Positions 1 through 15,423 of a stretch of DNA of 58,451 nucleotides are shown here, piece by piece. The DNA is from Deltaproteobacteria bacterium (lineage in GTDB: Bacteria > Desulfobacterota > Desulfomonilia > UBA1062). Location of the stretch: contig JAHDOV010000001.1 of the NCBI GenBank assembly GCA_018434685.1, forward strand, positions 1-58,451. The letters run 5' to 3'. The translations under genes were made by a program, and so were the position numbers. The notes beneath the pieces were generated by a model. It was not told the origin of the DNA. It saw nothing but the letters and a program-made list of their open reading frames with translations, and searched no databases. Each line of letters begins with the position of its first letter. Position 1 is the stretch's first letter.

Positions 1-1845
1 CGGCTCGAAGTAGAGCTTGTCCGAGATGTCGTAGTCTGTGCTCACGGTCTCGGGGTTGGAGTTGATCATGATGCTCTCATACCCCAGTTCCCGCAGCGCA
101 AACGAGGCATGGACACAGCAGTAGTCGAACTCGATACCCTGCCCGATCCTGTTCGGGCCACCGCCTATGATAATGACCCCGGGCCTGTCCGAGTGACGCA
201 CCTCATCTTCGGTCTCGTACGTGGAGTAATAGTAGGGGGTGTAGGCCTCGAACTCGGCGGCGCACGTATCCACGGACTTGTAGACCGGGACGATCTTCTC
301 CCGGTAGCGCATATCCCTGATGGCCTGCTCGCTGGTGCGCCACAGCTGCGACAGGTATTTATCGGAGAATCCGAGCCGTTTCGCCTCATAGAGGATCCCG
401 GGGCTGATTTCACTGCGCGTCAGGAGATCCTCGAAATCGACGAGTTCCCTGATCTGGCGGAGAAACCACGGATCGATCTTCGTCATGTCATGCACGTCTT
501 CCTCGCTCACGTTCAACCGGAAGGCCTCGGCTATCCAGAACAGTCGGGAAGAATTCGGAAAGGTCAGTTTCGATACGAGGTCCTTCTTGTTTTCCACCGG
601 CGGGGGATCGAGCGGACTTCCGAGCCCGAACCGGCCGATCTCGAGGGAACGCAGAGCCTTGTTGAGTGCCTCTTTGAAGGTCCTGCCGATGGCCATGGTC
701 TCGCCCACCGATTTCATGGAGGTCGTGAGGAGATCTTCTGTCTCCGGGAATTTCTCGAAGGTCCACCGGGGGATCTTCACCACACAGTAATCGATGGTGG
801 GCTCGAAGGATGCCATGGTTTCCCGGGTGATGTCATTGGGTATCTCATCGAGGGTATAGCCCACGGCAAGCTTGGCCGCTATCTTCGCGATGGGAAATCC
901 CGTCGCCTTGGAGGCCAGGGCCGAGGAGCGGGATACCCGGGGGTTCATCTCAATGACCACGATCTCTCCGTCTTCGGGGTTGACGGCGAACTGGACATTC
1001 GAACCGCCCGTTTCCACGCCGATCTCGCGCATGATGGCGATCGATGCATTTCTCAGTCGCTGGTACTCCACATCGGTCAGTGTCTGTGCAGGGGCCACGG
1101 TGATGGAGTCGCCGGTATGCACACCCATGGGGTCCATGTTCTCGATGGAGCAGATGATCACCACGTTGTCCGCCCTGTCGCGCATGACCTCAAGCTCATA
1201 CTCTTTCCAGCCGATCACGGACTGCTCGATCATGATCTCGCCGATCATGCTCGCGTCGAGCCCTCCCCTGGCTATCCTTTCCAGGTCCTCGGGATTGTAG
1301 GCGATGCCGCCCCCGATACCCCCGAGGGTAAAAGAAGGCCGGATGATGATGGGGTATCCGATCTCCTGCGCGACCCTGAAGACATCGTCCATGTTCCGCG
1401 CAAAGCCGCTTGCCGGGACCTTCAGGCCGATACTCTCCATGGCATGGCGGAACTTCTCCCGGTCCTCGGCCTTGTGAATGACCGCAGGCGTCGCACCGAT
1501 CATCTCCACGCCGAAGCGGTCGAGAACCCCCATAGCCGCGACCTCGACAGACACATTGAGCCCGGTCTGCCCGCCCAGCGTGGGAAGGATCGCGTCAGGC
1601 CTCTCCTTCTCGATGATGCGGGCCACGACATCAGGCGTGATCGGCTCGATATAGGTCCGGTCGGCCATCTCGGGATCGGTCATGATGGTGGCGGGATTCG
1701 AGTTGATCAGGACAACCTCATACCCCTCTTCCTTCAAGGCCTTGCATGCCTGTACCCCGGAATAGTCAAACTCGCACGCCTGGGATATGACAATGGGTCC
1801 GGACCCGATGATGAGAATCTTCTTCAGATCTTCTCTCTTTGGCAT
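1..1845 (-). CDS. carB: Carbamoyl-phosphate synthase large subunit, partial (C-terminus beyond window start)
   Basis: Encodes the ammonia-dependent synthetase subunit that makes carbamoyl phosphate for pyrimidines and arginine, using ammonia delivered by CarA. The reading frame begins at ATG 1845 with [18 protein letters not shown] and remains open for 615 codons to position 1, ending at DKLYFEP, so roughly the last 450 residues of a normal ~1070-residue CarB are missing. The first ATP-grasp half is complete, with the nucleotide-binding GSGPIVIGQ-like start (here [17 protein letters not shown]), [22 protein letters not shown] and [21 protein letters not shown]. The second half starts with [20 protein letters not shown]. 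It lies 110 bp downstream of the GlmS-like gene on the same strand, so carA, the GlmS-like gene and carB are probably co-transcribed. Identification is very secure. Confidence 0.97.
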
Positions 1846-1955
1846 CTTATCACCTGTTCATTTCAGCTGTCGCATCGTAACGTATGGTCTGCGGCATCGA
1901 ACACCCGCACCCCTGCACCAAGCATTTCCGTGCGGCTGTATAGCACACCCACCTC

Positions 1956-4900
1956 CTACTTTGCATCCAGCGATTTCTGTATCTCCCTGGCTATGGCCTC
2001 CGTGTCCCCGCCCAGCAGGAATTTCACCGGCAGCCTTTGAAGGAATGAATCGTCCCAGGCAAGGTTGTATTCGTCTATCAGGTTGCTGATATCGTTGAAC
2101 TTGTCGCCCAGGACTTCCTTTTTCTGCTCAACGGAGAGATCTTCGCGGAAATCCACATGCAGCAGGAGAAGGTTCTCCACGATCCGTCCAGACCCGATGA
2201 GCGGGACGATGATGATGGATGCGTTATCCGACTTTCCGTCACCGGCATAAACCTCTGTGGTGCGGACGATGGTCTTCTTCGTACCCATGAGCTTCCCCGT
2301 CTCTTCCACGCGGGAATGCATCCTCTGGGCTAGGCCGTATTTCTGGATGACCCTCACCGTGGACTCATCCGTGGGCTTGCCGTCGTCGTCGAGACCGCCG
2401 ACCTCATAGAGCGTGTACCCGTTTATCTGCAGCACTGCGTCCTGGAGCCGCTTGAGCCGTACTCCCTCCCGTGCGGAGAGGTTCTCCAGGGAGAAGTGCA
2501 GGTACTCCATGGCCTCGAACAGCAGCCCCCTGGGCGCCTCGATCTTTCTGCTCGTGCCCACGGTGACGGTCTTTGCCTGGTGGCGGATTGCATCCACGGG
2601 CCGCGACAGTTCATCTATTGCCCTGCCGAGGCTTGCATCGAGCATGTCCAGCGGCGAAGACGATGCCCGTAAGACCCCGAACTCGCTCCAGAAATCTTCG
2701 ATGGGCAGTTTGCCCACTGCATATTTCAGCAGCAGTGCGATATCCGATGCGGTCTCAACGTTCATGGATGCCAGTGCCCCGGATCTCCTCCATGAATTGA
2801 ATATCGAGGAAAAGTCATCCACACTCCTAAGGAGCTCCCGGTCTTCCAGGCTTTCATAGAGCGACAGGTTCCTCTCGTCGTGATCTCTCATCACCTCGGC
2901 GATCTTCGTCCTGAACGCCTTGAACGAGCCTGCCTGGGCATCGAGGCTGCAGGCGGCGTAGTATCCCCAGATGTGCCCGGCAAGGGTATTGAGGATCACC
3001 GAGAGCGGGAACGTTGAGCGGGGCACAGACACGACCGAATCCGAGATCTTCTCGAATCGCTTCTCCCCCTGGTCGGCAATGACCACCACGCGGGCTGCAT
3101 GGGCATGGAATATGGCGACGTCCTTGACGATATCTTCCAGGACAACCTTCGGGGTTCCTGCCGAGCAGACCACGATGAGCGGCTCGGAGGAAAGATCGAT
3201 ATGTTTTTTATCCTCCACGATATCGGATGATATGGTCTTGTAACACAGCTCGCTCAGTTTTATCCTGATCTCATCGGAGGCGACCTTGTTGGTACCGCTT
3301 CCCACGACCGCCCAGTACTTCTTCTTCCTCACGAGATCCCATGCAGACTGCCGGATGGAGGCCTTCTTTTCGATCACCCTGGCCATGAGCTCCGGGGCCT
3401 TCTCGAGCTGGGTCAGTTCGAGAGCGATCCGCTCGTCGGAGAGGGTGCCCACGAGTTTCGCCAGGTACAGGGCCAGGATATACCCCGCGGTAATCTGTGA
3501 ATAAAAGGCCTTGGTGGAGGCAACGGACATCTCGATATCCCTGCCGTCGCTCGTATAGAAGACCCCGTCCACCTTGTTGGTGATGTCGGACTGTCGCCGG
3601 TTCACGATGGCCAGCAGGTGTGCCCCGCGTTCTTTCGCCATTGCGACGGCCCGGTTGGTATCGGTGGTGGTCCCTGACTGGGTGATGGCGATCACCAGGC
3701 AGTCGGACATGTCATCGTCGAGGCAGAATCCGCTCAGGTCCGAGGCCTTTCTCGCCTGTACGGCCATGCGGGTCCCCTTGAGATAAATCGAGATGGCCTC
3801 GGCCACGGCAGCGGCGGCGATAGCGGCTGTCCCCTGCCCCACGACATAGATTCTCTGTATCCGGCCGCCTGTCAGGCTCTCCCGGATCTTTCCCGGCATG
3901 ACATCGTCATCGAGGTTGAAGACCACCGATGAGCCCTGCCTGATCTGGTACTTGCCCAGCATGGTCTTCCTGACCGAGTTCGGTGCGTCAAGGATCTCCT
4001 TGATCAGGTAGTGGGGGAAATCCCCGCGATCGATGTCCCGGGTGGTTATCTGGGCGCACTGAATGTCGTTTTCGGTGAGTTCCAGGTGATGCCCGTCGTA
4101 GTAGAGGGCCTCGATCCCCCCGATCCCGGGGCCTTTGTCGTTTCTCAGGACAAAGATCTGCCCTCTCGTGTGATCGCCAGAGAGTTTGTGCTGTCTTTCA
4201 CCGTCCATCTTGATGAAACGGGGCGTCTCTTCCACGAGCCCGTATATTTCGGATGAGAACAGCAACTGGTTGTTGCTGATACCCACATATATGGACTGGC
4301 CGCTGCCTCTGAGAGCCAGGAATACCTTTCCCGGCTCCAGGTTGCTCTCCAGTGCAATGGCATGAGAACCCTCGAAATCATTGAGCGCCTTCCTGAAGGC
4401 CTCCTTGAGATCGTGCCCCTCGTAGAGGTATCGCTCCACCTGGAGCGGGATAACCTTGGTGTCGGTGGTGATGCGCGAGTCGATGAGCCACGACTCGGAC
4501 TCCAGGGAATCCTTCAGAGCGACATAATTGTCGATATCCCCGTTGAGCACGACATTGATGGTCCACGGACCCCTCCCGTAGTACGGGTAGGTCTTGTTCG
4601 CAGCGGTGAAATCCCACTGCGTCGCTGCCGATGGATCCACACAGAAGTTGTTCACGGGATGGCAGTTTGCCTCATTGATAGCACCCACCGAGGCCCATCG
4701 GGTATGTGCCAGGTACATCTCGGAATCGCTCGGGAAACTGACAACGGACCGGATGACGGGATCGGTCTCTATGGAGCCCCTGAGTCTCTTCGTATTGTCG
4801 CCCAGGTCCCCGTTGATGAGCGCTGTCTTGTACGTGAATATGAGGCTGTGCGGAGCTATATGGATACTCCTGTCCCACACATCTCCGGGCCGGCACCGCT

Positions 4901-5678
4901 TCATGAATTCTTCGTAGACCCCGTCCTGTTTGATCCTCTCCAGCACAGAGGTGAAGTCGCCGGTAGTGCCAAACGTCAATGCCACCTGAACCCCGCAGGA
5001 ATCCCTCCCGCGGACCTCCAGCCGGTCCAGCGCATTGAGGGTGAAGTTGATCCGCTGATACTTTCCGAACACCTCCTCGGACACAACGGTTGTGCCCCCG
5101 CATAGATCCAGAATCCTGACCTGGTTCCCGAGGAGGTCTACGCCGAGTCCCCAGACGATGTCCTTGAAGGTGATGAGGGATCGCGACATGGCCTCCATGT
5201 CCTTCGTTGAAAACTGCTGGGCATGCTGTTCGAAAAGGCCCTGCTCTTCGTCCATGAAGGCTTTCATATGCGATACCAGCTCTTCGAGACGATCCGCGGG
5301 CATGGTGTAGAACATCTCCCGCTGGCTTGAGGGGTCCTGTTTCAGGGAGTAGATACCCTTCTCGAAGGCCTCGAGCGCCTCGGGACACAGATAGTCCAGT
5401 GGAGCGATGTGCCCCTCGAGAATCATCCCGAAACGATTCTCCCGTATCCGGGCAGCGTAGCCGGAGAACTCTTCAAACACCTTGTTCCGGGCCGTACCGG
5501 ACGATCCCTTGATCACCAGTATCCCGGCAAGGCCGCAGCAGATCACGTCCGGCTGAACCGGGAAGAACACAAGGCAGCGGCCCGGGAGATTCCTGGGATC
5601 TCTGCCCAGGTACACCTTCCATCCCCGCATATGCGCGGCACAACGACGGAACAATCTATTCATGAGACCTCTCTTCAT
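1956..5678 (-). CDS. Giant GlmS-family glutamine amidotransferase/SIS-domain protein
   Basis: A 1240-residue relative of glucosamine-6-phosphate synthase (normally ~600). Visible core: an Ntn glutaminase with candidate nucleophile Cys47 or Cys48 (VICCGLAGILVI), RGRDSCG (224-230, matching RGYDSAG of GlmS), HTRWAS (325-330) and LNGDIDNY (378-385); the PHYLIKEI linker (~555); SIS domain 1 (~605-740) with ITQSGTTTDTN and SVASTKAFYSQ; SIS domain 2 (~785-930) with EIRIKLSELCY and EDKKHID. Unlike GlmS it has ~46 residues before the Cys, ~160 extra residues between the Cys strand and RGRDSCG, ~50 extra before HTRW, and a unique ~250-residue C-terminal region. A glutamate-synthase-like cleaved propeptide would reconcile the internal Cys. 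The start could also be Met6 (5663), which has AGAGAGG before it. It sits between carA and carB. Whether it makes glucosamine-6-phosphate, another amino sugar, or is regulatory is unknown. Confidence 0.85.
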   Translation of the reverse strand: MKRGLMNRLFRRCAAHMRGWKVYLGRDPRNLPGRCLVFFPVQPDVICCGLAGILVIKGSSGTARNKVFEEFSGYAARIRENRFGMILEGHIAPLDYLCPEALEAFEKGIYSLKQDPSSQREMFYTMPADRLEELVSHMKAFMDEEQGLFEQHAQQFSTKDMEAMSRSLITFKDIVWGLGVDLLGNQVRILDLCGGTTVVSEEVFGKYQRINFTLNALDRLEVRGRDSCGVQVALTFGTTGDFTSVLERIKQDGVYEEFMKRCRPGDVWDRSIHIAPHSLIFTYKTALINGDLGDNTKRLRGSIETDPVIRSVVSFPSDSEMYLAHTRWASVGAINEANCHPVNNFCVDPSAATQWDFTAANKTYPYYGRGPWTINVVLNGDIDNYVALKDSLESESWLIDSRITTDTKVIPLQVERYLYEGHDLKEAFRKALNDFEGSHAIALESNLEPGKVFLALRGSGQSIYVGISNNQLLFSSEIYGLVEETPRFIKMDGERQHKLSGDHTRGQIFVLRNDKGPGIGGIEALYYDGHHLELTENDIQCAQITTRDIDRGDFPHYLIKEILDAPNSVRKTMLGKYQIRQGSSVVFNLDDDVMPGKIRESLTGGRIQRIYVVGQGTAAIAAAAVAEAISIYLKGTRMAVQARKASDLSGFCLDDDMSDCLVIAITQSGTTTDTNRAVAMAKERGAHLLAIVNRRQSDITNKVDGVFYTSDGRDIEMSVASTKAFYSQITAGYILALYLAKLVGTLSDERIALELTQLEKAPELMARVIEKKASIRQSAWDLVRKKKYWAVVGSGTNKVASDEIRIKLSELCYKTISSDIVEDKKHIDLSSEPLIVVCSAGTPKVVLEDIVKDVAIFHAHAARVVVIADQGEKRFEKISDSVVSVPRSTFPLSVILNTLAGHIWGYYAACSLDAQAGSFKAFRTKIAEVMRDHDERNLSLYESLEDRELLRSVDDFSSIFNSWRRSGALASMNVETASDIALLLKYAVGKLPIEDFWSEFGVLRASSSPLDMLDASLGRAIDELSRPVDAIRHQAKTVTVGTSRKIEAPRGLLFEAMEYLHFSLENLSAREGVRLKRLQDAVLQINGYTLYEVGGLDDDGKPTDESTVRVIQKYGLAQRMHSRVEETGKLMGTKKTIVRTTEVYAGDGKSDNASIIIVPLIGSGRIVENLLLLHVDFREDLSVEQKKEVLGDKFNDISNLIDEYNLAWDDSFLQRLPVKFLLGGDTEAIAREIQKSLDAK

Positions 5679-5744
5679 CTCTCACCACCGGGCAGCGCCT
5701 CCCCTGCAGCATCCCCTGCCTTCATCTGCCGGCCAAAGAACTCA

Positions 5745-6887
5745 TCATGCCCTTGTCTGCTCTGCGCTGGTGTCCATCATCCGCATGAAATCGGCAAAGA
5801 GATAATTCGCATCCATGGGTCCGGGAGCTGCCTCGGGATGATACTGGACGCTGAATGCCCTGAGCGACGGGAAATAAAGGCCTTCCAGGGTATGATCGTT
5901 CAGGTTGATGTGGGATATACGGGTATCCTTTGGCAGCGTTTCCGTGATCACGACAAATCCATGGTTCTGGGAGGTGATCTCGATCCTGCCGGTACCCATG
6001 TTCTTTACCGGCTGGTTGACCCCGTGATGGCCGAACTTGAGCTTCTCGGTCTTTGCCCCGAGAGCCTGACCGAGTATCTGGTGACCGAGGCAGATGCCGA
6101 AGATGGGAAGCCTGCCGAGCAGCGACCTGACAGTGTCTACCGCATAGGTCACCGCTGCCGGGTCTCCGGGACCGTTTGAGAGCAGGAGACCGTCGGGGTT
6201 GAACGGCAGGATATCGTGCGGCGGCGTCCAGGCAGGCACTACAACGACTTCGCAGCCTGCATTCTCGAGATTTCTCAGGATATTGAACTTCACCCCGCAG
6301 TCGAGGACCACCACCCGATAGGGCGCAGTCTTTTCCGGGAGCCCCTCGAGAGCAACAGCCCCCCCGTTCTTCCACACATAGGCCTGAGTGCAGCTCACGT
6401 GCTGCACAAGGTCCTGTCCCTCGAGCCCGGGGAATGAACCTACCTTCTCGAGCAGCTCTTTTGTATTCCTGCTCCTGGTGGAGATGATGCCTCGCATGGC
6501 ACCACGGGTCCGGATACGGCGGGTAAGCGCCCTCGTATCGATCCCCTCGATCCCGATCTTCCCGTGTTCTTCCAGATATTCCTTGAGCGTCTTTCTGGAG
6601 CGCCAGTTGCTCGGGTGATCCATGTATTCCCGTACGACGAATCCCTCCAGGTGAATTCCGGAAGATTCCACATCCTCGTCGTTGATGCCGTAGTTCCCGA
6701 TGAGCGGATAGGTCATGACCAGGATCTGCCCCTTATACGAGGGATCGGTGAGCACCTCCTGGTACCCGGTCATGCCAGTGTTGAACACGACCTCGCCAAG
6801 CGTCTCTCCGCTGCCCGCAAAGGCATGTCCTTCAAAGTACGATCCGTCCTCCAGAACGAGCATGGCTGGTCTTTTTTCCCTGTGCAC
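5745..6887 (-). CDS. carA: Carbamoyl-phosphate synthase small (glutaminase) subunit
   Basis: Hydrolyses glutamine and channels ammonia to CarB. At 380 residues it is normal length. The N-terminal CarA domain starts LVLEDGSYFEGHAFAG and includes VVFNTGMTGYQEVLTDPSY. The C-terminal class I glutaminase carries the catalytic Cys in FGICLGHQILGQALG, the oxyanion motif LLSNGPGDP and the His/Glu pair in QYHPEAAPGP. The first Met has little upstream Shine-Dalgarno character, and a start at residue 9 (MLVLEDG) is possible. It lies 95 bp after glnA, separated by a strong hairpin, and 66 bp before the GlmS-like gene, so glutamine made by GlnA is consumed by the next two gene products. Confidence 0.96.
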   Translation of the reverse strand: MHREKRPAMLVLEDGSYFEGHAFAGSGETLGEVVFNTGMTGYQEVLTDPSYKGQILVMTYPLIGNYGINDEDVESSGIHLEGFVVREYMDHPSNWRSRKTLKEYLEEHGKIGIEGIDTRALTRRIRTRGAMRGIISTRSRNTKELLEKVGSFPGLEGQDLVQHVSCTQAYVWKNGGAVALEGLPEKTAPYRVVVLDCGVKFNILRNLENAGCEVVVVPAWTPPHDILPFNPDGLLLSNGPGDPAAVTYAVDTVRSLLGRLPIFGICLGHQILGQALGAKTEKLKFGHHGVNQPVKNMGTGRIEITSQNHGFVVITETLPKDTRISHINLNDHTLEGLYFPSLRAFSVQYHPEAAPGPMDANYLFADFMRMMDTSAEQTRA

Positions 6888-6930
6888 GAGTGAGCCCTCC
6901 CGGCCTTTTGAACTGTCCTGTGATCACACA

Positions 6931-6966
6931 CCGGCCCCGGCAGGAGACTGTCCCCTGCCGGGCCGG
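6931..6966 (-). terminator. Strong intercistronic hairpin between glnA and carA
   Basis: CCGGCCCCGGCAGG pairs with CCTGCCGGGCCGG around a 9-nt loop, about 13 pairs with one bulge. No T-tract follows on the minus strand, so it may be a leaky or Rho-independent-like attenuator, or an mRNA-stabilising element that sets carA expression below glnA. Confidence 0.5.
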
Positions 6967-6982
6967 CAATGATCGCCTATAT

Positions 6983-8314
6983 CTAAAGCACGGGCAGATA
7001 GTTGTCTATCTCAAACTTGCTTACGTGGATCCTGAACTTATCCCACTCCTTTTTCTTGTTCTCGATGAACTTGTTGAAGATGTGGTCGCCCAGGGCTTCT
7101 CTCACCAACTCGCTCTTGGACACCTCCTGGATTGCCTCGAAGAGGTTTCCCGGTAGAGACGTGATGCCGGCAACATCGCGTGCCTTCTCGTCCATCTCGA
7201 AGATATCCTGCTCGATGGGCTCGGGCAGGGGGTATTTATTCTCCATGCCCTTGAGTCCGGCTGCGATCTGTACGGCGAAGGCGAGATACGGGTTACATGC
7301 CGGGTCAGGTGCCCTGAACTCCATCCGGGTGGCCTTGGCCTTTCCGGGCTTGTACATGGGTACCCGCACCATGGCGGACCGGTTCCGGCGTGCCCAGGAG
7401 ACGTATACCGGGGCTTCGTAGCCGGGCACGAGGCGCTTGTAGGAATTCACCCACTGGTTCGTGACTGCCACGATCTCCCGTGCATGGGCGAGAATACCGG
7501 CTATGTAATGTTTGCCTTCCTTTGACAGATGATATTGGTCTGCAGCATCGAAGAATGCATTCTCATCACCCTTGAAGAGGGACTGGTGGACGTGCATGCC
7601 GCTTCCGTTCTCGCCGGACAGGGGCTTCGGCATGAAGGTAGCGTAGACACCGTGCTGCCGTGCGATCTCCTTGACCGCAGTCCGGTAGGTCATGACGGTA
7701 TCCGCCATATGGAGCGCTTCTTTAAATCTGAGGTCGATCTCATGCTGGGAGGGTGCCACCTCGTGATGGCTGTACTCCACCTGGATACCCATATTCTGGA
7801 GCGCGAAGATGGTGTCCCTGCGGATATCGGGCGCGCGGTCAATGGGCAGTCCGTCAAAGTATCCGCCCTTGTCGATGGGTTGGGGGTTGTTCTCGTCGGT
7901 GAAATAGAAATACTCCAGTTCCGGGCCGAGATAGACGGTATAGCCCTGCGCCGCAGTCTTCTTGAGGATACGCTTGAGGGCATATCTCGGGTCGCCTTCA
8001 TAGGCTGTTCCGTCAGGGTTGAGGATATCGCAGAACATCCGTGCCACCGGAAGATCGTTCGGCCGCCACGGCAGCAGCTGAAAGGTGGTTGGGTCCGCCA
8101 TGGCGATCATATCGCTCTCGTGAATACGGGCAAACCCCTCGATCGACGAACCGTCGAAGCCCATACCCTCTTCAAGGCCTTCCGGCAGTTCAGACGGGGT
8201 TATACTGAAGCTTTTGAGCCTGCCGAGTACATCGGTGAACCAGAACTGGATGAAACTCACCTTATGCTCCTGCACTGCCTTGAGAACATCCTGTTTTGTC
8301 TTACAATCTAACAT
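6983..8314 (-). CDS. glnA: Glutamine synthetase, type I (alpha subtype)
   Basis: Makes glutamine from glutamate, ammonia and ATP in the cytoplasm. The 443-residue protein has the GSI signatures: FDGSSIEGF latch region, GPELEYFYF, HHEVAPSQHEID, NGSGMHVHQSL (ATP/metal site) and RRNRSAMVRVP. Near the C-terminus, where GSI-beta enzymes have the adenylylated Tyr loop (NLYDLPPEE), this protein reads MDEKARDVAGITSLPGNL, with no such Tyr. That points to the GSI-alpha form, controlled by feedback or protein inhibitors rather than GlnE. A good ribosome site (GGAGGCATGAG) precedes ATG 8314. It is the fourth gene of the glutamate synthase transcript, 52 bp behind the GltD-like gene, so the GS-GOGAT cycle is encoded as one unit. 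Confidence 0.97.
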   Translation of the reverse strand: MLDCKTKQDVLKAVQEHKVSFIQFWFTDVLGRLKSFSITPSELPEGLEEGMGFDGSSIEGFARIHESDMIAMADPTTFQLLPWRPNDLPVARMFCDILNPDGTAYEGDPRYALKRILKKTAAQGYTVYLGPELEYFYFTDENNPQPIDKGGYFDGLPIDRAPDIRRDTIFALQNMGIQVEYSHHEVAPSQHEIDLRFKEALHMADTVMTYRTAVKEIARQHGVYATFMPKPLSGENGSGMHVHQSLFKGDENAFFDAADQYHLSKEGKHYIAGILAHAREIVAVTNQWVNSYKRLVPGYEAPVYVSWARRNRSAMVRVPMYKPGKAKATRMEFRAPDPACNPYLAFAVQIAAGLKGMENKYPLPEPIEQDIFEMDEKARDVAGITSLPGNLFEAIQEVSKSELVREALGDHIFNKFIENKKKEWDKFRIHVSKFEIDNYLPVL

Positions 8315-8366
8315 CTCATGCCTCCATTTTTTTATTTATCCCCTGGTGTTTCTTCCCGGGAAAAAG

Positions 8367-10700
8367 TTATTCCAGGGGGTCGTTCTCTCTCAATTCCCAG
8401 ATACCGCAGGGACAGGCACCCGAGCAGAATCCGCACCCGATGCAGAGTCCGGAGTCCACCACGTATTCGTATCCTCCCTGCTGAAGATCCCTCCTGCTGA
8501 TGGCCTGCTGCGGACAGAGGGCCTCGCACAGACCGCAATCGCGGCAGCCGCCGCATGATGCACACTGGAAGGAGCATGCCTGGATATCCGTGGGGCGTTC
8601 GTCGCGCGGATTGTAGTACTCGAGCCTCACGGTTCTTGTGTCGATCACTCCGAGCTGGTCAAAGGTCTCTTCCGTCCCCTTGAGGAGGGCATCTATTGTG
8701 CGTGCGACCTTCCTGCCTGCACCGATCGCATCGGTGATCAGGCCGGGCCTGACGCTGTCACCCATGGCAAAGACCTTCGAATCGCTCGTCTGATACCTCT
8801 CATCCACCCTGACAAACCCGTCTTTCACGTCTATTGAAAGCGGCAGGAAGCTCAGATCCGGCTTGTCGCCGATCGAGACGACCACGAGGTCTGCGGGCAG
8901 AATCTCACCGCTGGCAAGCTCCACACCCTGGGCGGTAATGGCCTTGGTAAAGACCGGCCACAGGAATTTTGCGCCGATCTCCTCGGCTGCGGCCCGCTCT
9001 TTGCCGAACGATGCCGGTTCCTGGATGTCGATGAGGGTGATGTCCTGCGCTCCGAGGCGGTGCGCCTCGGTGGCAATGTCACAACCCACATTGCCCGCAC
9101 CGATAACCACGACCTGCCTGCCCACCTGTATGGCATCGGCCTTGGCGAGCTGCAGAAATTCCAGGGCGCTTACCGTGTGTTCATGTCCCTTTGCCCGTAG
9201 TTCACGAGCGGTCTGGGCGCCGACCGCTATGACGGTGAAGTCGTGTGCGTCCCGGATATCCCGGAAGGTTTCTTCTGTCAGATCCTCGGCCATGTGCACC
9301 TGGGTCACCTTCTCTGAGATCCTTTCGATCTCGTGAGCGAAGACCTCTTTGGGAATCCTGCTGTGCGGTATGACACTCGCGATCTTCCCCCCCAGTTTTT
9401 TCGACCGGTCATAGACGACCGGTTCATGCCCGCTCATCCAGAGCTGCCATGCCACGGACAGTCCGGCCGGGCCTCCGCCGATGACGGCAATCTTCCTGCC
9501 GGTGGGAGGGAGCGGCGTGGGGTCGTGGGCTTCGACGCTGGCCTTGCCGAGCACGGTTATGTCCACGGAGGGAAGAAACACCTCGCCCCTCGTGCAATGA
9601 TCCATGCAGAGGTTCGGGCAGAGGTACCCGCATACGGTCGCGGGAAACGGCGTATACTCGAGTGCAAGGTCTATGGCACGGTCCACCTCGCCCTTGCGGA
9701 TCAGGTCCCACCTCTTCTGCACCGGTATACCCGTGGGACAGTATGCCTGGCACGGCGACAGGTACTTGTTGTTCTGCCATTCGGGAACAAACCGCCTGAG
9801 CTCGCCGGTGGTGATGACCGGTACAGGGCTCCGGTCAATGGTCAACAGATCGCCGATGAGGCCGCCTCTGCCGAGCTCTGTCTCCCAGACCTCGGACCTG
9901 AACCGGTCCATGGGCATCCGTTTCGTCCCGTTGCGCTCATGCGGTTCCAGGGACACCAGGAGCTGCCAGGCAGACCGCTCGGAGGTCAGGATATCGAAGA
10001 GATCGCTCCGGTCGATGGCCTCCAGGAACTCCCGTATGTTCCGGGTAAGCCATTCCCAGTCCCCGTCGCCGATGCGGACAAGCTTCGCATCTTTTTCGCT
10101 GAAATTCTTCTGGGTGCCCCTGAAGAAGATCTTTCCGCCGACCATCCCCACGCACGGCCTGTGTCCGAGGATATTGCCCCGGTAATGCGAACCGAGACCG
10201 CAGACAACCGCGATACCGCCTGCCATGAACTCGGCGAACGAATCACCGACCCCGCCGAGCACCCACAGCTGCGGGGGATCGAACCGGGGATTGCTCTTGG
10301 TCATGGTCATGCCCCTGGCCCCGATATCGCCCGCGACATAGATCTTGCCCTGGGCCATGGCATTGGCCACACCGTTGGTCGCATCGCCGTGCACCACGAT
10401 GGTTGCACCGGCATTGAGCCACCCCACGTCATCAGAGGCCGATTCGTGGACCTCGATGTAGGTTCCGGGAGACCCCATGGACCCGATCCTCTGGCCAGGA
10501 TAGCCGTGTATGCTCACCTGTACGGGCTTCCCGCCCGTGTTCCACAGTCTGCCTCCGATGCCGTGCTGGCCGAATGCCTGGACCTCGATGTTCAGGTAGC
10601 CCCGCTCGACAGCCTTCCGGATTCTCTCCTCGAGGACGCGGGTTTCTATCCTGGTTCCGTCTTCCATTCCGGAGATTATGATTTTTTCCTGATGATTCAT
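8367..10700 (-). CDS. Glutamate synthase subunit: GXGXG domain fused to GltD-like flavoprotein and ferredoxin
   Basis: Composite 777-residue protein. The N-terminal ~240 residues match the GXGXG (GltB C-terminal) beta-helix (GHQHGIGGR-like FGQHGIGGRLW, YVAGDIGARGMTM). The middle is the GltD-type NAD(P)H oxidoreductase with its cysteine-rich N-terminal region (CQAYCPTGIPVQ, CGYLCPNLCMDHCTRG), an FAD Rossmann motif (AVIGGGPAGLS) and an NAD(P) motif (VVVIGAGNVGCD). The C-terminus carries a cysteine-rich ferredoxin module (CASCGGCRDCGLCEALCP, CIGCGFCSGACPCG). Start taken at ATG 10700 (MNHQEK) behind GGGAGATTCG; an in-frame TTG at 10712 has no support. It would feed electrons to the FMN subunit encoded just upstream, 12 bp away. 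Confidence 0.9.
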   Translation of the reverse strand: MNHQEKIIISGMEDGTRIETRVLEERIRKAVERGYLNIEVQAFGQHGIGGRLWNTGGKPVQVSIHGYPGQRIGSMGSPGTYIEVHESASDDVGWLNAGATIVVHGDATNGVANAMAQGKIYVAGDIGARGMTMTKSNPRFDPPQLWVLGGVGDSFAEFMAGGIAVVCGLGSHYRGNILGHRPCVGMVGGKIFFRGTQKNFSEKDAKLVRIGDGDWEWLTRNIREFLEAIDRSDLFDILTSERSAWQLLVSLEPHERNGTKRMPMDRFRSEVWETELGRGGLIGDLLTIDRSPVPVITTGELRRFVPEWQNNKYLSPCQAYCPTGIPVQKRWDLIRKGEVDRAIDLALEYTPFPATVCGYLCPNLCMDHCTRGEVFLPSVDITVLGKASVEAHDPTPLPPTGRKIAVIGGGPAGLSVAWQLWMSGHEPVVYDRSKKLGGKIASVIPHSRIPKEVFAHEIERISEKVTQVHMAEDLTEETFRDIRDAHDFTVIAVGAQTARELRAKGHEHTVSALEFLQLAKADAIQVGRQVVVIGAGNVGCDIATEAHRLGAQDITLIDIQEPASFGKERAAAEEIGAKFLWPVFTKAITAQGVELASGEILPADLVVVSIGDKPDLSFLPLSIDVKDGFVRVDERYQTSDSKVFAMGDSVRPGLITDAIGAGRKVARTIDALLKGTEETFDQLGVIDTRTVRLEYYNPRDERPTDIQACSFQCASCGGCRDCGLCEALCPQQAISRRDLQQGGYEYVVDSGLCIGCGFCSGACPCGIWELRENDPLE

Positions 10701-10712
10701 CGAATCTCCCAA

Positions 10713-12347
10713 CTATACGACATGCTTTATCTGGAGCCGCCGGGCAGCATGGTAGTCATCGATCCCGATTGCATCGGACATCCCGATGGGAAGCGAGGTA
10801 GACCTGCCCAGCGGTGCAAGGATTTTCTTGAGTTCCGAGTCAAAGCTCAGGAACACGTCCACGACGCGCTGGGCCACGTCCTCGGGATTGAGCCGCCGGT
10901 AAAGCCTCGGGTCCTGGGAGGTGATGCCCTTCGGACAGCGGCCGATGTTGCAGATATTGCACCGGTCGGTCTCCGAACCCACGCAACCCGCAGCGGCCTG
11001 CATGATATACTTTCCGATCTGGATGCCGCTTGCACCGAGCATGATGAGTGCCGCTGCATTGGCTGCCAGGTTGCCGTTCTTCCCGACGCCGCCGCCTGCA
11101 AACACCGGGATCTCGTTCTGTTTGCCGATCTTGACCAGGTTGAGGTACGCATCACGGATATTGCTCGCAATGGGATGCCCCATATGGTTCATGGAGACGT
11201 TATAGGCCGCTCCCGTGCCGCCGTCCTCACCGTCGATGGCCAGGGCCGCAGCATAGGGATTGCGGGCAAGGTTGTTCAGCACAGCCAGCGAGGTGGTCGT
11301 GGCAGAGATCTTCGGATAGACGGGAACCCTGAATCCCCAGGCCATGTACATGCTCTGGATCATCTTGGCGACGCTCTCCTCTATGGAGTACTTGGTCTGG
11401 TGGGTCGGCGGAGACGGCAGGCTCACTCCCTCGGGCACGCCCCTGATGGCCGCGATGAGCTTGTTCACCTTGTACCACATGAGCAGGCCGCCATCGCCCG
11501 GTTTTGCCCCCTGACCGTACTTGATCTCGATGGCACAGGGATCTTCCTTCATCTCGGGCAGGGCATGGATGATCTCATCCCAGCCGAAGTAGCCGCTCGC
11601 GATCTGGAGGATGACGTACTTCAGGAAACGCGACCGGAGAAGCCGCGGCGGGCAGCCGCCTTCACCGGTGCTGATCCTCACCGGCATGCCGATCTCCTCG
11701 TTGAGGTAGGCCACTCCCATCTGGAGCCCCTCCCACATGTTCGGGGAGAGTGCCCCGAACGACATGGCGCCGATGATCAGCGGATAGATCTCGCGCACAG
11801 GAGGCATCCATGAATTTCCCCTGGAGGCCTCGATCATCTCTTCGGGCGGGAGTATGCGCCCGAGCAGGGTCCGCAGCTCGAATTCGTGACGCCCGGCATC
11901 CAGGGCCGGGTCCGTGAGCATGGAGATCCTGATGAACTTGATCCGGTCGAGAAGGCTGCCGGCATCGTTCCTCCTTCCTCCCCGCCTCCTGGGCTCTCCA
12001 CCTGAATTGGTGTGGTAGCGCAGCTTGTCGATCTCTTCGTTGAGCACGGGATAGATGGCACTGTTGGGGCATACCTGGGTGCACATGCCGCACCCGATAC
12101 AGGCATGAGCAGGTTCTGTCACCTGGTCGATGCCGTGATACACGCTGTAGACGTTGCCCGGCTTCTCCATGAGGCCGAGCTTCACTGTGATCTCTCTCTT
12201 TTGATGCACACCGAGCTCTATGGCCCTGAGAGGACACACGGCGGTGCACCTGCCGCACAGGGTGCACTTGTCCTTGTCCCACAGGATATGCCAGTGCAGG
12301 TCTTTCGCACTCAGTGTGGATGGATGGATTTTTCCCACTGATTCCAT
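10713..12347 (-). CDS. Glutamate synthase FMN-binding central subunit with N-terminal ferredoxin (archaeal type)
   Basis: Catalytic synthase domain that reduces 2-iminoglutarate to glutamate. Of 544 residues, the first ~110 hold two 4Fe-4S motifs (CTLCGRCTAVCP, CIGCGMCTQVCP). The rest is the GltB FMN barrel with MSFGALS, STGEGGCPPR, EIKYGQGAKPGDGG, DGEDGGTGAA, and the Cys cluster CNICNIGRCPKGITSQDP typical of the glutamate synthase 3Fe-4S site. This ferredoxin-plus-FMN layout is the archaeal-type GltB, in which amidotransferase and GXGXG domains are separate genes. Good Shine-Dalgarno (GGAGGTGAAGAG) before ATG 12347. The start overlaps the end of the amidotransferase gene by 37 bp, suggesting translational coupling and a defined complex. 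Confidence 0.93.
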   Translation of the reverse strand: MESVGKIHPSTLSAKDLHWHILWDKDKCTLCGRCTAVCPLRAIELGVHQKREITVKLGLMEKPGNVYSVYHGIDQVTEPAHACIGCGMCTQVCPNSAIYPVLNEEIDKLRYHTNSGGEPRRRGGRRNDAGSLLDRIKFIRISMLTDPALDAGRHEFELRTLLGRILPPEEMIEASRGNSWMPPVREIYPLIIGAMSFGALSPNMWEGLQMGVAYLNEEIGMPVRISTGEGGCPPRLLRSRFLKYVILQIASGYFGWDEIIHALPEMKEDPCAIEIKYGQGAKPGDGGLLMWYKVNKLIAAIRGVPEGVSLPSPPTHQTKYSIEESVAKMIQSMYMAWGFRVPVYPKISATTTSLAVLNNLARNPYAAALAIDGEDGGTGAAYNVSMNHMGHPIASNIRDAYLNLVKIGKQNEIPVFAGGGVGKNGNLAANAAALIMLGASGIQIGKYIMQAAAGCVGSETDRCNICNIGRCPKGITSQDPRLYRRLNPEDVAQRVVDVFLSFDSELKKILAPLGRSTSLPIGMSDAIGIDDYHAARRLQIKHVV

Positions 12348-13441
12348 CTCTTCACCTCCATCCTCGATGCGTCGACATAGGCGACGTCATACTTCATTGG
12401 CTGGAACTCATAGTTTTTTTCCCGCAGGGGGATGGCCTCCTCGAGCCCGCACATCTCCGAGGAAAATGCGAACATCCCGGGTTTTCCGCCGACCACACCC
12501 GGCCGGAGCTTCTTGCTGTCCTGGACCATGAACAGGGTCTTGTCGGGAAGGCAGCCGATGACACAGTTCGGGCCGTCAACCGTGAGGAACCTGCAGCTGT
12601 GCTTGAGCTGACGCAGGAACGCCCCCTCGGGATGCCGCACCAGTTCCTCGTCCTTCAGGGGGGTTATGATGTGCTTGTAGGCATCCAGGCCCAGGCTCAG
12701 CCGATGTGTCGTATAGTGCAGAATATGCGTGAACACCTCGGAATCGGACTGGTAGCCCATGTACCCCTCGTATCCCCGCGAGGTAAGGTATTCCCTGATT
12801 GGCGAAAAGGCGGTATTCTCACCGTTGGTCATGCTCGCAACACCCTGCAGGAAGAACGGGTGGCATGCATAGAGCGTGATGGCATAGTTCGTGTTCTGCC
12901 TGCCCTGCGCCAGGATGACGCGGGCCTGCAGGCCTTTGCGATCGAGCCCGAGGTACTCGGCTATCTGCAGGGGATCTCCCACTTCCTTGATCATGATCAC
13001 GTCGGGCCAGAAGGAGAATACCATCATGGACTGGTCTTCCTCGCCCATCTTCCGTAGCGCTACCCGTATCTTCACGAGCCGGTCAGCAATCTCGGTTTCG
13101 CTCAAGCCATCCCATTCATAGGGATATTCATACACCCGGATGAGATACACATCCCGATGGGGTGTGCCGGCGGGCGGTTCCTTGGACGGCCTGATGGAAA
13201 ACTTGTACTTGGTGAGCAGGCCGAGTTCCATCATGTATCGATCGAGTTTTCTGATACCCTCCTGGGAAAATATTCCCGAGAGAATGGGAGAGCCCTTGAA
13301 CGGCTCCAGATCACCGCCGAGATCAGTCATGAAAAGCCCGACTCCTGATCCGTCATGGCCTTCTTTCATCACATCCAGGGCACGGATTGCGACCATCGGT
13401 GAAAGCGGCTCTTCACTGGTAACGGCAAACAGTCGGCACAC
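12311..13441 (-). CDS. Glutamate synthase glutamine amidotransferase subunit (class II, GltB1-like)
   Basis: Releases ammonia from glutamine for the split glutamate synthase. The 376-residue Ntn hydrolase starts MCRLFAVTSEEPLSP, so Met removal exposes the nucleophilic Cys. The start codon is GTG at 13441, which is the only choice that puts Cys at position 2; AAGGAGG lies 9 nt upstream. Visible conserved elements include KEGHDGSGVGL, the His/Asn-rich ASMTNGENTAF, and GYQSDSEVFTHIL. No propeptide is present, in contrast with fused GltB proteins. It is the first gene of the transcript that continues through the FMN subunit, the GltD-like subunit, glnA, carA and beyond. Confidence 0.92.
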   Translation of the reverse strand: MCRLFAVTSEEPLSPMVAIRALDVMKEGHDGSGVGLFMTDLGGDLEPFKGSPILSGIFSQEGIRKLDRYMMELGLLTKYKFSIRPSKEPPAGTPHRDVYLIRVYEYPYEWDGLSETEIADRLVKIRVALRKMGEEDQSMMVFSFWPDVIMIKEVGDPLQIAEYLGLDRKGLQARVILAQGRQNTNYAITLYACHPFFLQGVASMTNGENTAFSPIREYLTSRGYEGYMGYQSDSEVFTHILHYTTHRLSLGLDAYKHIITPLKDEELVRHPEGAFLRQLKHSCRFLTVDGPNCVIGCLPDKTLFMVQDSKKLRPGVVGGKPGMFAFSSEMCGLEEAIPLREKNYEFQPMKYDVAYVDASRMEVKRWNQWEKSIHPH

Positions 13442-13480
13442 GTAATGTTTCCTCCTTGCAAGTATCTGTACTCTCTAAGA

Positions 13481-13495
13481 GCCAAATCCATGCCA
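13481..13495 (-). promoter_or_regulatory. Candidate sigma-54 promoter of the glutamate synthase operon
   Basis: Minus strand reads TGGCAT-GGATT-TGGC, one mismatch in the -12 tetramer against TGGCAC-N5-TTGC, with the essential GG and GC exactly 10 bp apart. The predicted start of transcription (~13469) leaves a short leader containing the AAGGAGG ribosome site. Confidence 0.5.
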
Positions 13496-13643
13496 GAGGG
13501 GAGATCCCGCCTGGTCCGGGGTGGTTTTATCGGGCTGTTCTGCCAATATGTTATTTTATTTCAATGCATTGTGAATATTAATAAGATCTGCGGGACCGGT
13601 TTTTCCCCTGGTTGATACACGATAATGCCGAAAAGATGTTTGT

Positions 13644-13680
13644 CAATATTGTTGATTCGGATCTAAACAGAACAATATTG
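13644..13680. promoter_or_regulatory. Inverted repeat, possible activator site upstream of glutamate synthase
   Basis: Perfect 10-bp arms CAATATTGTT (13644-13653) and AACAATATTG (13671-13680) separated by 17 bp, about 150 bp upstream of the sigma-54 candidate. The position suits an enhancer for a sigma-54 activator; the sequence is not a recognisable NtrC or NifA site. Confidence 0.4.
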
Positions 13681-13902
13681 TTGCAAACTGGCGTGCGGTT
13701 TCTCCCGGAAGCCGGCAGGGTCTCCAGGGGACCCGCTCGGGGCCGCAGCATGAACTGACCACTGCATGACGATCACGTTTCAGGCCGTTTCTCCCCGGGA
13801 CACCGGCAATCCTCGCCGAGATACCGGGCAGGGGATGCAACGTAATTGTCCACCTTCCCGAGACCGACCTCGGCCCACCGGTCCGGATTCCTTCCGGAGG
13901 CC

Positions 13903-15423
<1,521 letters not shown>

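Follow-up and report, generated by a model that had tools for sequence, protein, structure and literature searches.

A giant GlmS-like protein with a conserved leader before its catalytic cysteine: a probable precursor form of glucosamine-6-phosphate synthase in Desulfobacterota

The window analysed here comprises 58,451 nucleotides of contig JAHDOV010000001.1 from a Deltaproteobacteria bacterium, and all features given below lie on its minus strand. A reading frame of 1240 codons (1956..5678), supported by full-length relatives, encodes a giant protein that resembles the glucosamine-6-phosphate synthase GlmS. GlmS, a drug target, produces the amino-sugar precursor that is the first committed one for peptidoglycan and lipopolysaccharide. 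Its N-terminal cysteine is described as required, and its C-terminal tail (C-tail) bears a catalytic lysine. The giant is flanked upstream by carA (5745..6887) and downstream by carB (1..1845, cut by the window end), which encode the small and large subunits of carbamoyl-phosphate synthase. Both neighbours were assigned from curated families, which confirms the gene order carA - giant - carB described in an earlier note on this DNA. Curated families also identify glnA, a type I glutamine synthetase gene (6983..8314), and split glutamate-synthase-like genes further upstream of carA and glnA. A NifA-like sigma-54 activator with an N-terminal GAF domain is encoded at 13903-15423, upstream of the glutamate synthase-glnA-car cluster, which suggests nitrogen control of this cluster. 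A search of window positions 1-14000 matched no RNA families, and neither a glmS ribozyme nor a riboswitch was found there.

The GlmS landmarks reported in the earlier note (RGRDSCG, HTRWAS, LNGDIDNY, and SVASTKAFYSQ) are all present in the 1240-codon frame. Translation probably starts at Met6 (5663), where a Met is aligned in 12 of 17 close relatives, giving a leader of about 42 residues. The GTG codon of Val45, which would produce a Met-Ile-Cys-Cys N-terminus, was rejected as a general start because selection acts on the leader and no such start is found in relatives. The same uninterrupted architecture is found in about 50 other genomes, with 53-72% identity within the window's own family (f1) and down to about 34-36% in other families, and the giant therefore cannot be put down to a frameshift or a fusion. 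The earlier note had named a conserved frameshift correction to a normal GlmS start as evidence against its reading; no homologue of the leadered clade shows one.

Pfam searches of the giant identify SIS and class II glutaminase domains, and NCBIfam matches it to GlmS (TIGR01135) with 238.4 bits against a curated cut-off of 418; all giants score under this cut-off. The glutaminase domain (4044..5537, residues 48-545), defined by Pfam, NCBIfam, the predicted model, and a fold match, is enlarged by insertions. The larger of these is the insertion of about 160 residues that had been noted after the nucleophile; it spans residues 57-216 (5031..5510), follows the first glutaminase strand, is all helical in the model, and has no sequence match. 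The stretch between RGRDSCG and HTRWAS is enlarged by about 57 further residues. The double-SIS isomerase domain (2943..4034, residues 549-912) features E810 and H826, which match E488 and H504 of the E. coli enzyme. It is followed by a helical insert of about 120 residues (2583..2942, residues 913-1032), also without a sequence match, and by the motif HQAKTVTVG (2556..2582, residues 1033-1041). The protein ends in an extra C-terminal domain of about 196 residues (1959..2546, residues 1045-1240) with an alpha-beta-beta-alpha-beta-beta-beta-alpha order. Approximately 250 C-terminal residues had been regarded as unassigned. This holds for the domain of about 196 residues, however, HQAKTVTVG corresponds to the GlmS C-tail NLAKSVTVE, with K1036 matching the catalytic K603 of E. 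coli. The Pfam matches of the C-terminal domain, the N-terminal insertion, and the helical insert were weak and scattered. A profile search of the PDB gave no convincing match for the C-terminal domain and, for the N-terminal insertion, mainly helical proteins, including designed coiled coils. A motif in the C-terminal domain is suggestive of GAF, but an hhalign comparison with 12 GAF domains of the same genome gave a probability of 9.7% over 25 columns, which does not establish a likeness to GAF. A regulatory or assembly role for the helical inserts and the C-terminal domain is a guess.

The catalytic residues of GlmS are Cys1, Glu488, His504, and Lys603 (PMC9272926). Alignment with canonical GlmS equates C48 of the giant with C1, R327 with R73, W328 with W74, N379/G380 with N98/G99, and D406 with D123 in the glutaminase site, and K807 with K485, E810 with E488, H826 with H504, and A1035/K1036 with A602/K603 in the isomerase site. 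The residues of both sites (C1, R73, W74, N98, G99, D123, K485, E488, H504, A602, and K603) are kept in 27 of 27 aligned sequences. In a wider set the main catalytic residues are conserved in 50/50 sequences and the A602/K603 equivalents in 49/49, one of the 50 being cut by a contig end. Either Cys47 or Cys48 had been proposed as the nucleophile, and a lack of conservation had been named as evidence against this. Cys48 (codon 5535..5537), whose counterpart in E. coli GlmS is residue 1, is a cysteine in all 50 sequences and is the putative N-terminal nucleophile, whereas position 47 varies between C, N, F, L, S, and Y.

The AlphaFold model of residues 1-548 (62 sequences) has a mean pLDDT of 90 and matches the glutaminase domain of E. 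coli GlmS (1xff) with a Z score of 30.8 and an rmsd of 1.6 over 237 residues. Cys48 superposes on residue 1 of 1xff and, in PurF, glutamate synthase, and asparagine synthetase, on the residue that comes first in the mature chain; the leader has no counterpart in the matched solved structures. The model of the C-terminal half has a mean pLDDT of 85.8. The matches listed for it in the fold search were taken up by SIS enzymes, and the match to 1jxa (Z 43.7, 369 residues) extends to E. coli residue 608 across the helical insert, which places the C-tail structurally after this insert. The register of the C-tail differs between the two alignments: the tail is a low-confidence loop in the model, and the structural alignment puts residue 608 two residues further along than the alignment of the sequences. 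Of the two, the sequence motif deserves more weight.

The leader preceding Cys48 (5538..5663, residues 6-47) is a putative propeptide and is found in 43 of the 50 giants in a survey of the phylum. It features the pattern [YF]-x-G-[RK]-x-P ... [SA]-[IV]-[VI]-[FL]-F-P-x5-L-x-C-G, of which the FP motif is present in nearly all leadered members. In the model it consists of a helix (residues 2-18) and two strands (21-24 and 35-38), predicted with confidence except for a disordered loop, residues 43-46, directly before Cys48. The first 18 or so residues are basic and hydrophobic and are under looser constraint than residues 19-46, where pN is well below pS, with the same direction in all pairs examined and a pattern similar to that of the glutaminase domain; this indicates that the leader is translated and constrained. 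In none of the leadered members is Cys48 immediately preceded by a start codon. The seven leaderless giants have one (ATG or GTG) directly in front of the Cys codon TGC. The tree places the leaderless proteins in one deep clade and two singletons among leadered members (G190 and G209), which amounts to three changes of state, and in both singletons ATG-TGC directly follows a plausible ribosome-binding site. This pattern is what would be expected if the cysteine must be the mature N-terminus.

The survey covered 394 Desulfobacterota genomes of at least 85% completeness, of which 50 encode a giant and 319 a GlmS above the curated cut-off. Canonical GlmS above the cut-off is found in 318 of the 344 genomes without a giant and in 1 of the 50 with one (Fisher p 4e-42, for genomes that are related and not phylogenetically independent). 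Both enzymes occur together in only one surveyed genome (G210), and 49 of the 50 genomes with a giant have no canonical GlmS. The giants form a clade separate from canonical GlmS, and both states are found within several families (f35, f51, and f2, for example), which shows that the giant and canonical forms were exchanged more than once. A search of plasmids returned only matches of ordinary GlmS length. The giant would also fill an apparent gap in the pathway, since these genomes would be scored as deficient by standard glmS annotation. Genomes G038 and G210 (L128) hold a giant and a canonical GlmS, possibly as a transition state, a paralogue, or contamination. Genomes G002 (94% complete) and G009 (99%), from the same family as the window, have neither, possibly owing to an assembly gap or to another route to glucosamine-6-phosphate.

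The giant shares with GlmS/GFAT enzymes (TIGR01135; E. coli 1jxa, human 6r4h) the order of a glutaminase followed by a double SIS, all catalytic residues, the C-tail motif AK-VTV, and the fold. It differs in size, as GlmS/GFAT subunits have 589-716 residues (PMC9272926) compared to about 1235, and in having a leader before the cysteine, the two large inserts, and a C-tail that is internal and followed by about 196 residues. Additionally, the C300-G-T-S motif of GlmS is QGTA in the giant. Because of its low score, its size, and the position of its C-tail, the giant is not counted as a member of TIGR01135. PurF (the B. subtilis and plant GPRATase) and GltB likewise have a translated N-terminal leader before the catalytic cysteine of the same glutaminase fold, but the sequence and length of their leaders differ and the acceptor is a PRTase or glutamate synthase domain instead of SIS. 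Self-cleavage is known for PurF and GltB, whereas we infer it for the giant. NagB-II and other double-SIS phosphosugar enzymes share the SIS fold (the NagB-II match is 60.9 bits), however, the NagB-II type has no glutaminase domain, while the giant keeps both this domain and the C-tail lysine.

The giant is probably the functional glucosamine-6-phosphate synthase of these bacteria, made as a precursor from which a propeptide would be removed in the manner of PurF and GltB. In PurF-type enzymes, removal of the propeptide by autocatalysis exposes the cysteine (PMC7056826). Most likely the giant works like GlmS, as a distant relative of double size. It would be made with its folded leader ahead of Cys48, and the leadered enzyme would probably have to be cut before it could use glutamine; removal of the leader, most likely by autocatalysis, would give Cys48 a free alpha-amino group. 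The mature glutaminase would then release ammonia from glutamine, the double-SIS domain would pass it to fructose-6-phosphate, and E810, H826, and the internal K1036 would carry out the isomerisation. Residue conservation, the fold match, leader conservation, the replacement of canonical GlmS, and gene linkage are observed for the giant. Against this reading stand the score of 238 bits relative to the equivalog cut-off of 418, the internal C-tail with its shifted structural register, the two genomes that carry both enzymes, and the two that carry neither. The earlier proposal of an amidotransferase that processes itself or matures in some other way has good indirect support from the invariant Cys48, the conserved and selected leader, the loop before Cys48, the Met-Cys relatives, and the complete active sites; the cleavage itself is a prediction. 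Autocatalytic propeptide removal that exposes the cysteine also occurs in glutamate synthase. We know of no earlier report of a propeptide on a GlmS, and the open literature searched yielded none.

The fate of the leader can be read in other ways. A separate host protease or aminopeptidase may remove it from a functional GlmS, or it may mainly be a trimmed assembly or membrane-targeting segment. The folded helix and two strands, a length greater than that of PurF propeptides, the basic and hydrophobic first 18 or so residues, and the variable residue before Cys48 agree with this, but class II amidotransferases of the PurF type carry out their own processing (PMC7056826) and the neighbourhoods of the giant share no recurrent gene for a partner protease, which makes it unlikely. 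It is more improbable still that the leader is kept and the glutaminase unused, leaving an enzyme that uses free ammonia or a non-catalytic sensor of glutamine or sugar. The frame does run through Cys48 with no start codon just before it in leadered members, and the large extra domains could be sensory; however, all glutaminase residues are invariant, Met directly precedes Cys in leaderless members, and these genomes, which require a GlmS, lack any other. A more speculative form of the precursor reading, tentative and rather doubtful, holds that the leader is a regulated pro-domain. The giant would then be a GlmS zymogen whose glutaminase is turned on by conditional self-cleavage, perhaps controlled by the C-terminal domain, in which the normally free ends, the N-terminal Cys and the C-terminal tail, were capped in evolution. 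An enzyme that was doubled, given a folded leader before its cysteine and about 200 residues after its tail, and repeatedly swapped across a phylum is a natural experiment, and its leadered and leaderless relatives allow a direct comparison of how and why amidotransferase propeptides arise.

The earlier note also offered the giant as a glutamine sensor controlling carbamoyl phosphate supply. Its location, with carA and carB on either side and glnA and the glutamate synthase genes further upstream, would suit such a regulator, but this role is very improbable: the GlmS active sites are complete, the giant replaces canonical GlmS across genomes, and linkage to carA/carB is found in only 9 of 50 genomes. 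Elsewhere the giant is found with glmM, a GlmU-like gene, pyrG, or kdnAB. The genes glmM and/or a GlmU-like left-handed-helix (LbH) gene are within 4 genes of it in 21 of 48 loci, and pyrG is beside or near it in 15 of 48. A sister genus has the gene order carA-giant-LbH-glmM-x-carB, which indicates that the car linkage reflects an amino-sugar cassette inserted between carA and carB. Genes of the kdnA-kdnB type are directly upstream of the giant in 8-9 loci (best matches 5k8b and 5k8c, E below 1e-140); the kdnB type is found in L109, L112, L114, L118, L120, L122, L123, L126, and L127, with the kdnA type adjacent in eight of the nine. To our knowledge kdnA-kdnB, of the 8-amino-Kdo pathway, are known mainly from Shewanella. 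The window's genome carries glmM and an adjacent GlmU-like left-handed-helix gene on another contig. At 342 residues its best GlmU match is short, which may mean that GlmU is split in this genome. Proteins of 410-450 residues that resemble the left-handed-helix C-terminal domain of GlmU are encoded beside the giant or glmM in L093-L099 and L146. Two f35 genomes (G138 at L087 and G165 at L107) have the carA-giant arrangement, with carB also present in G138. On the tree the giant of G138 falls within the window's family, and the carA-giant block looks as if it was transferred between families.
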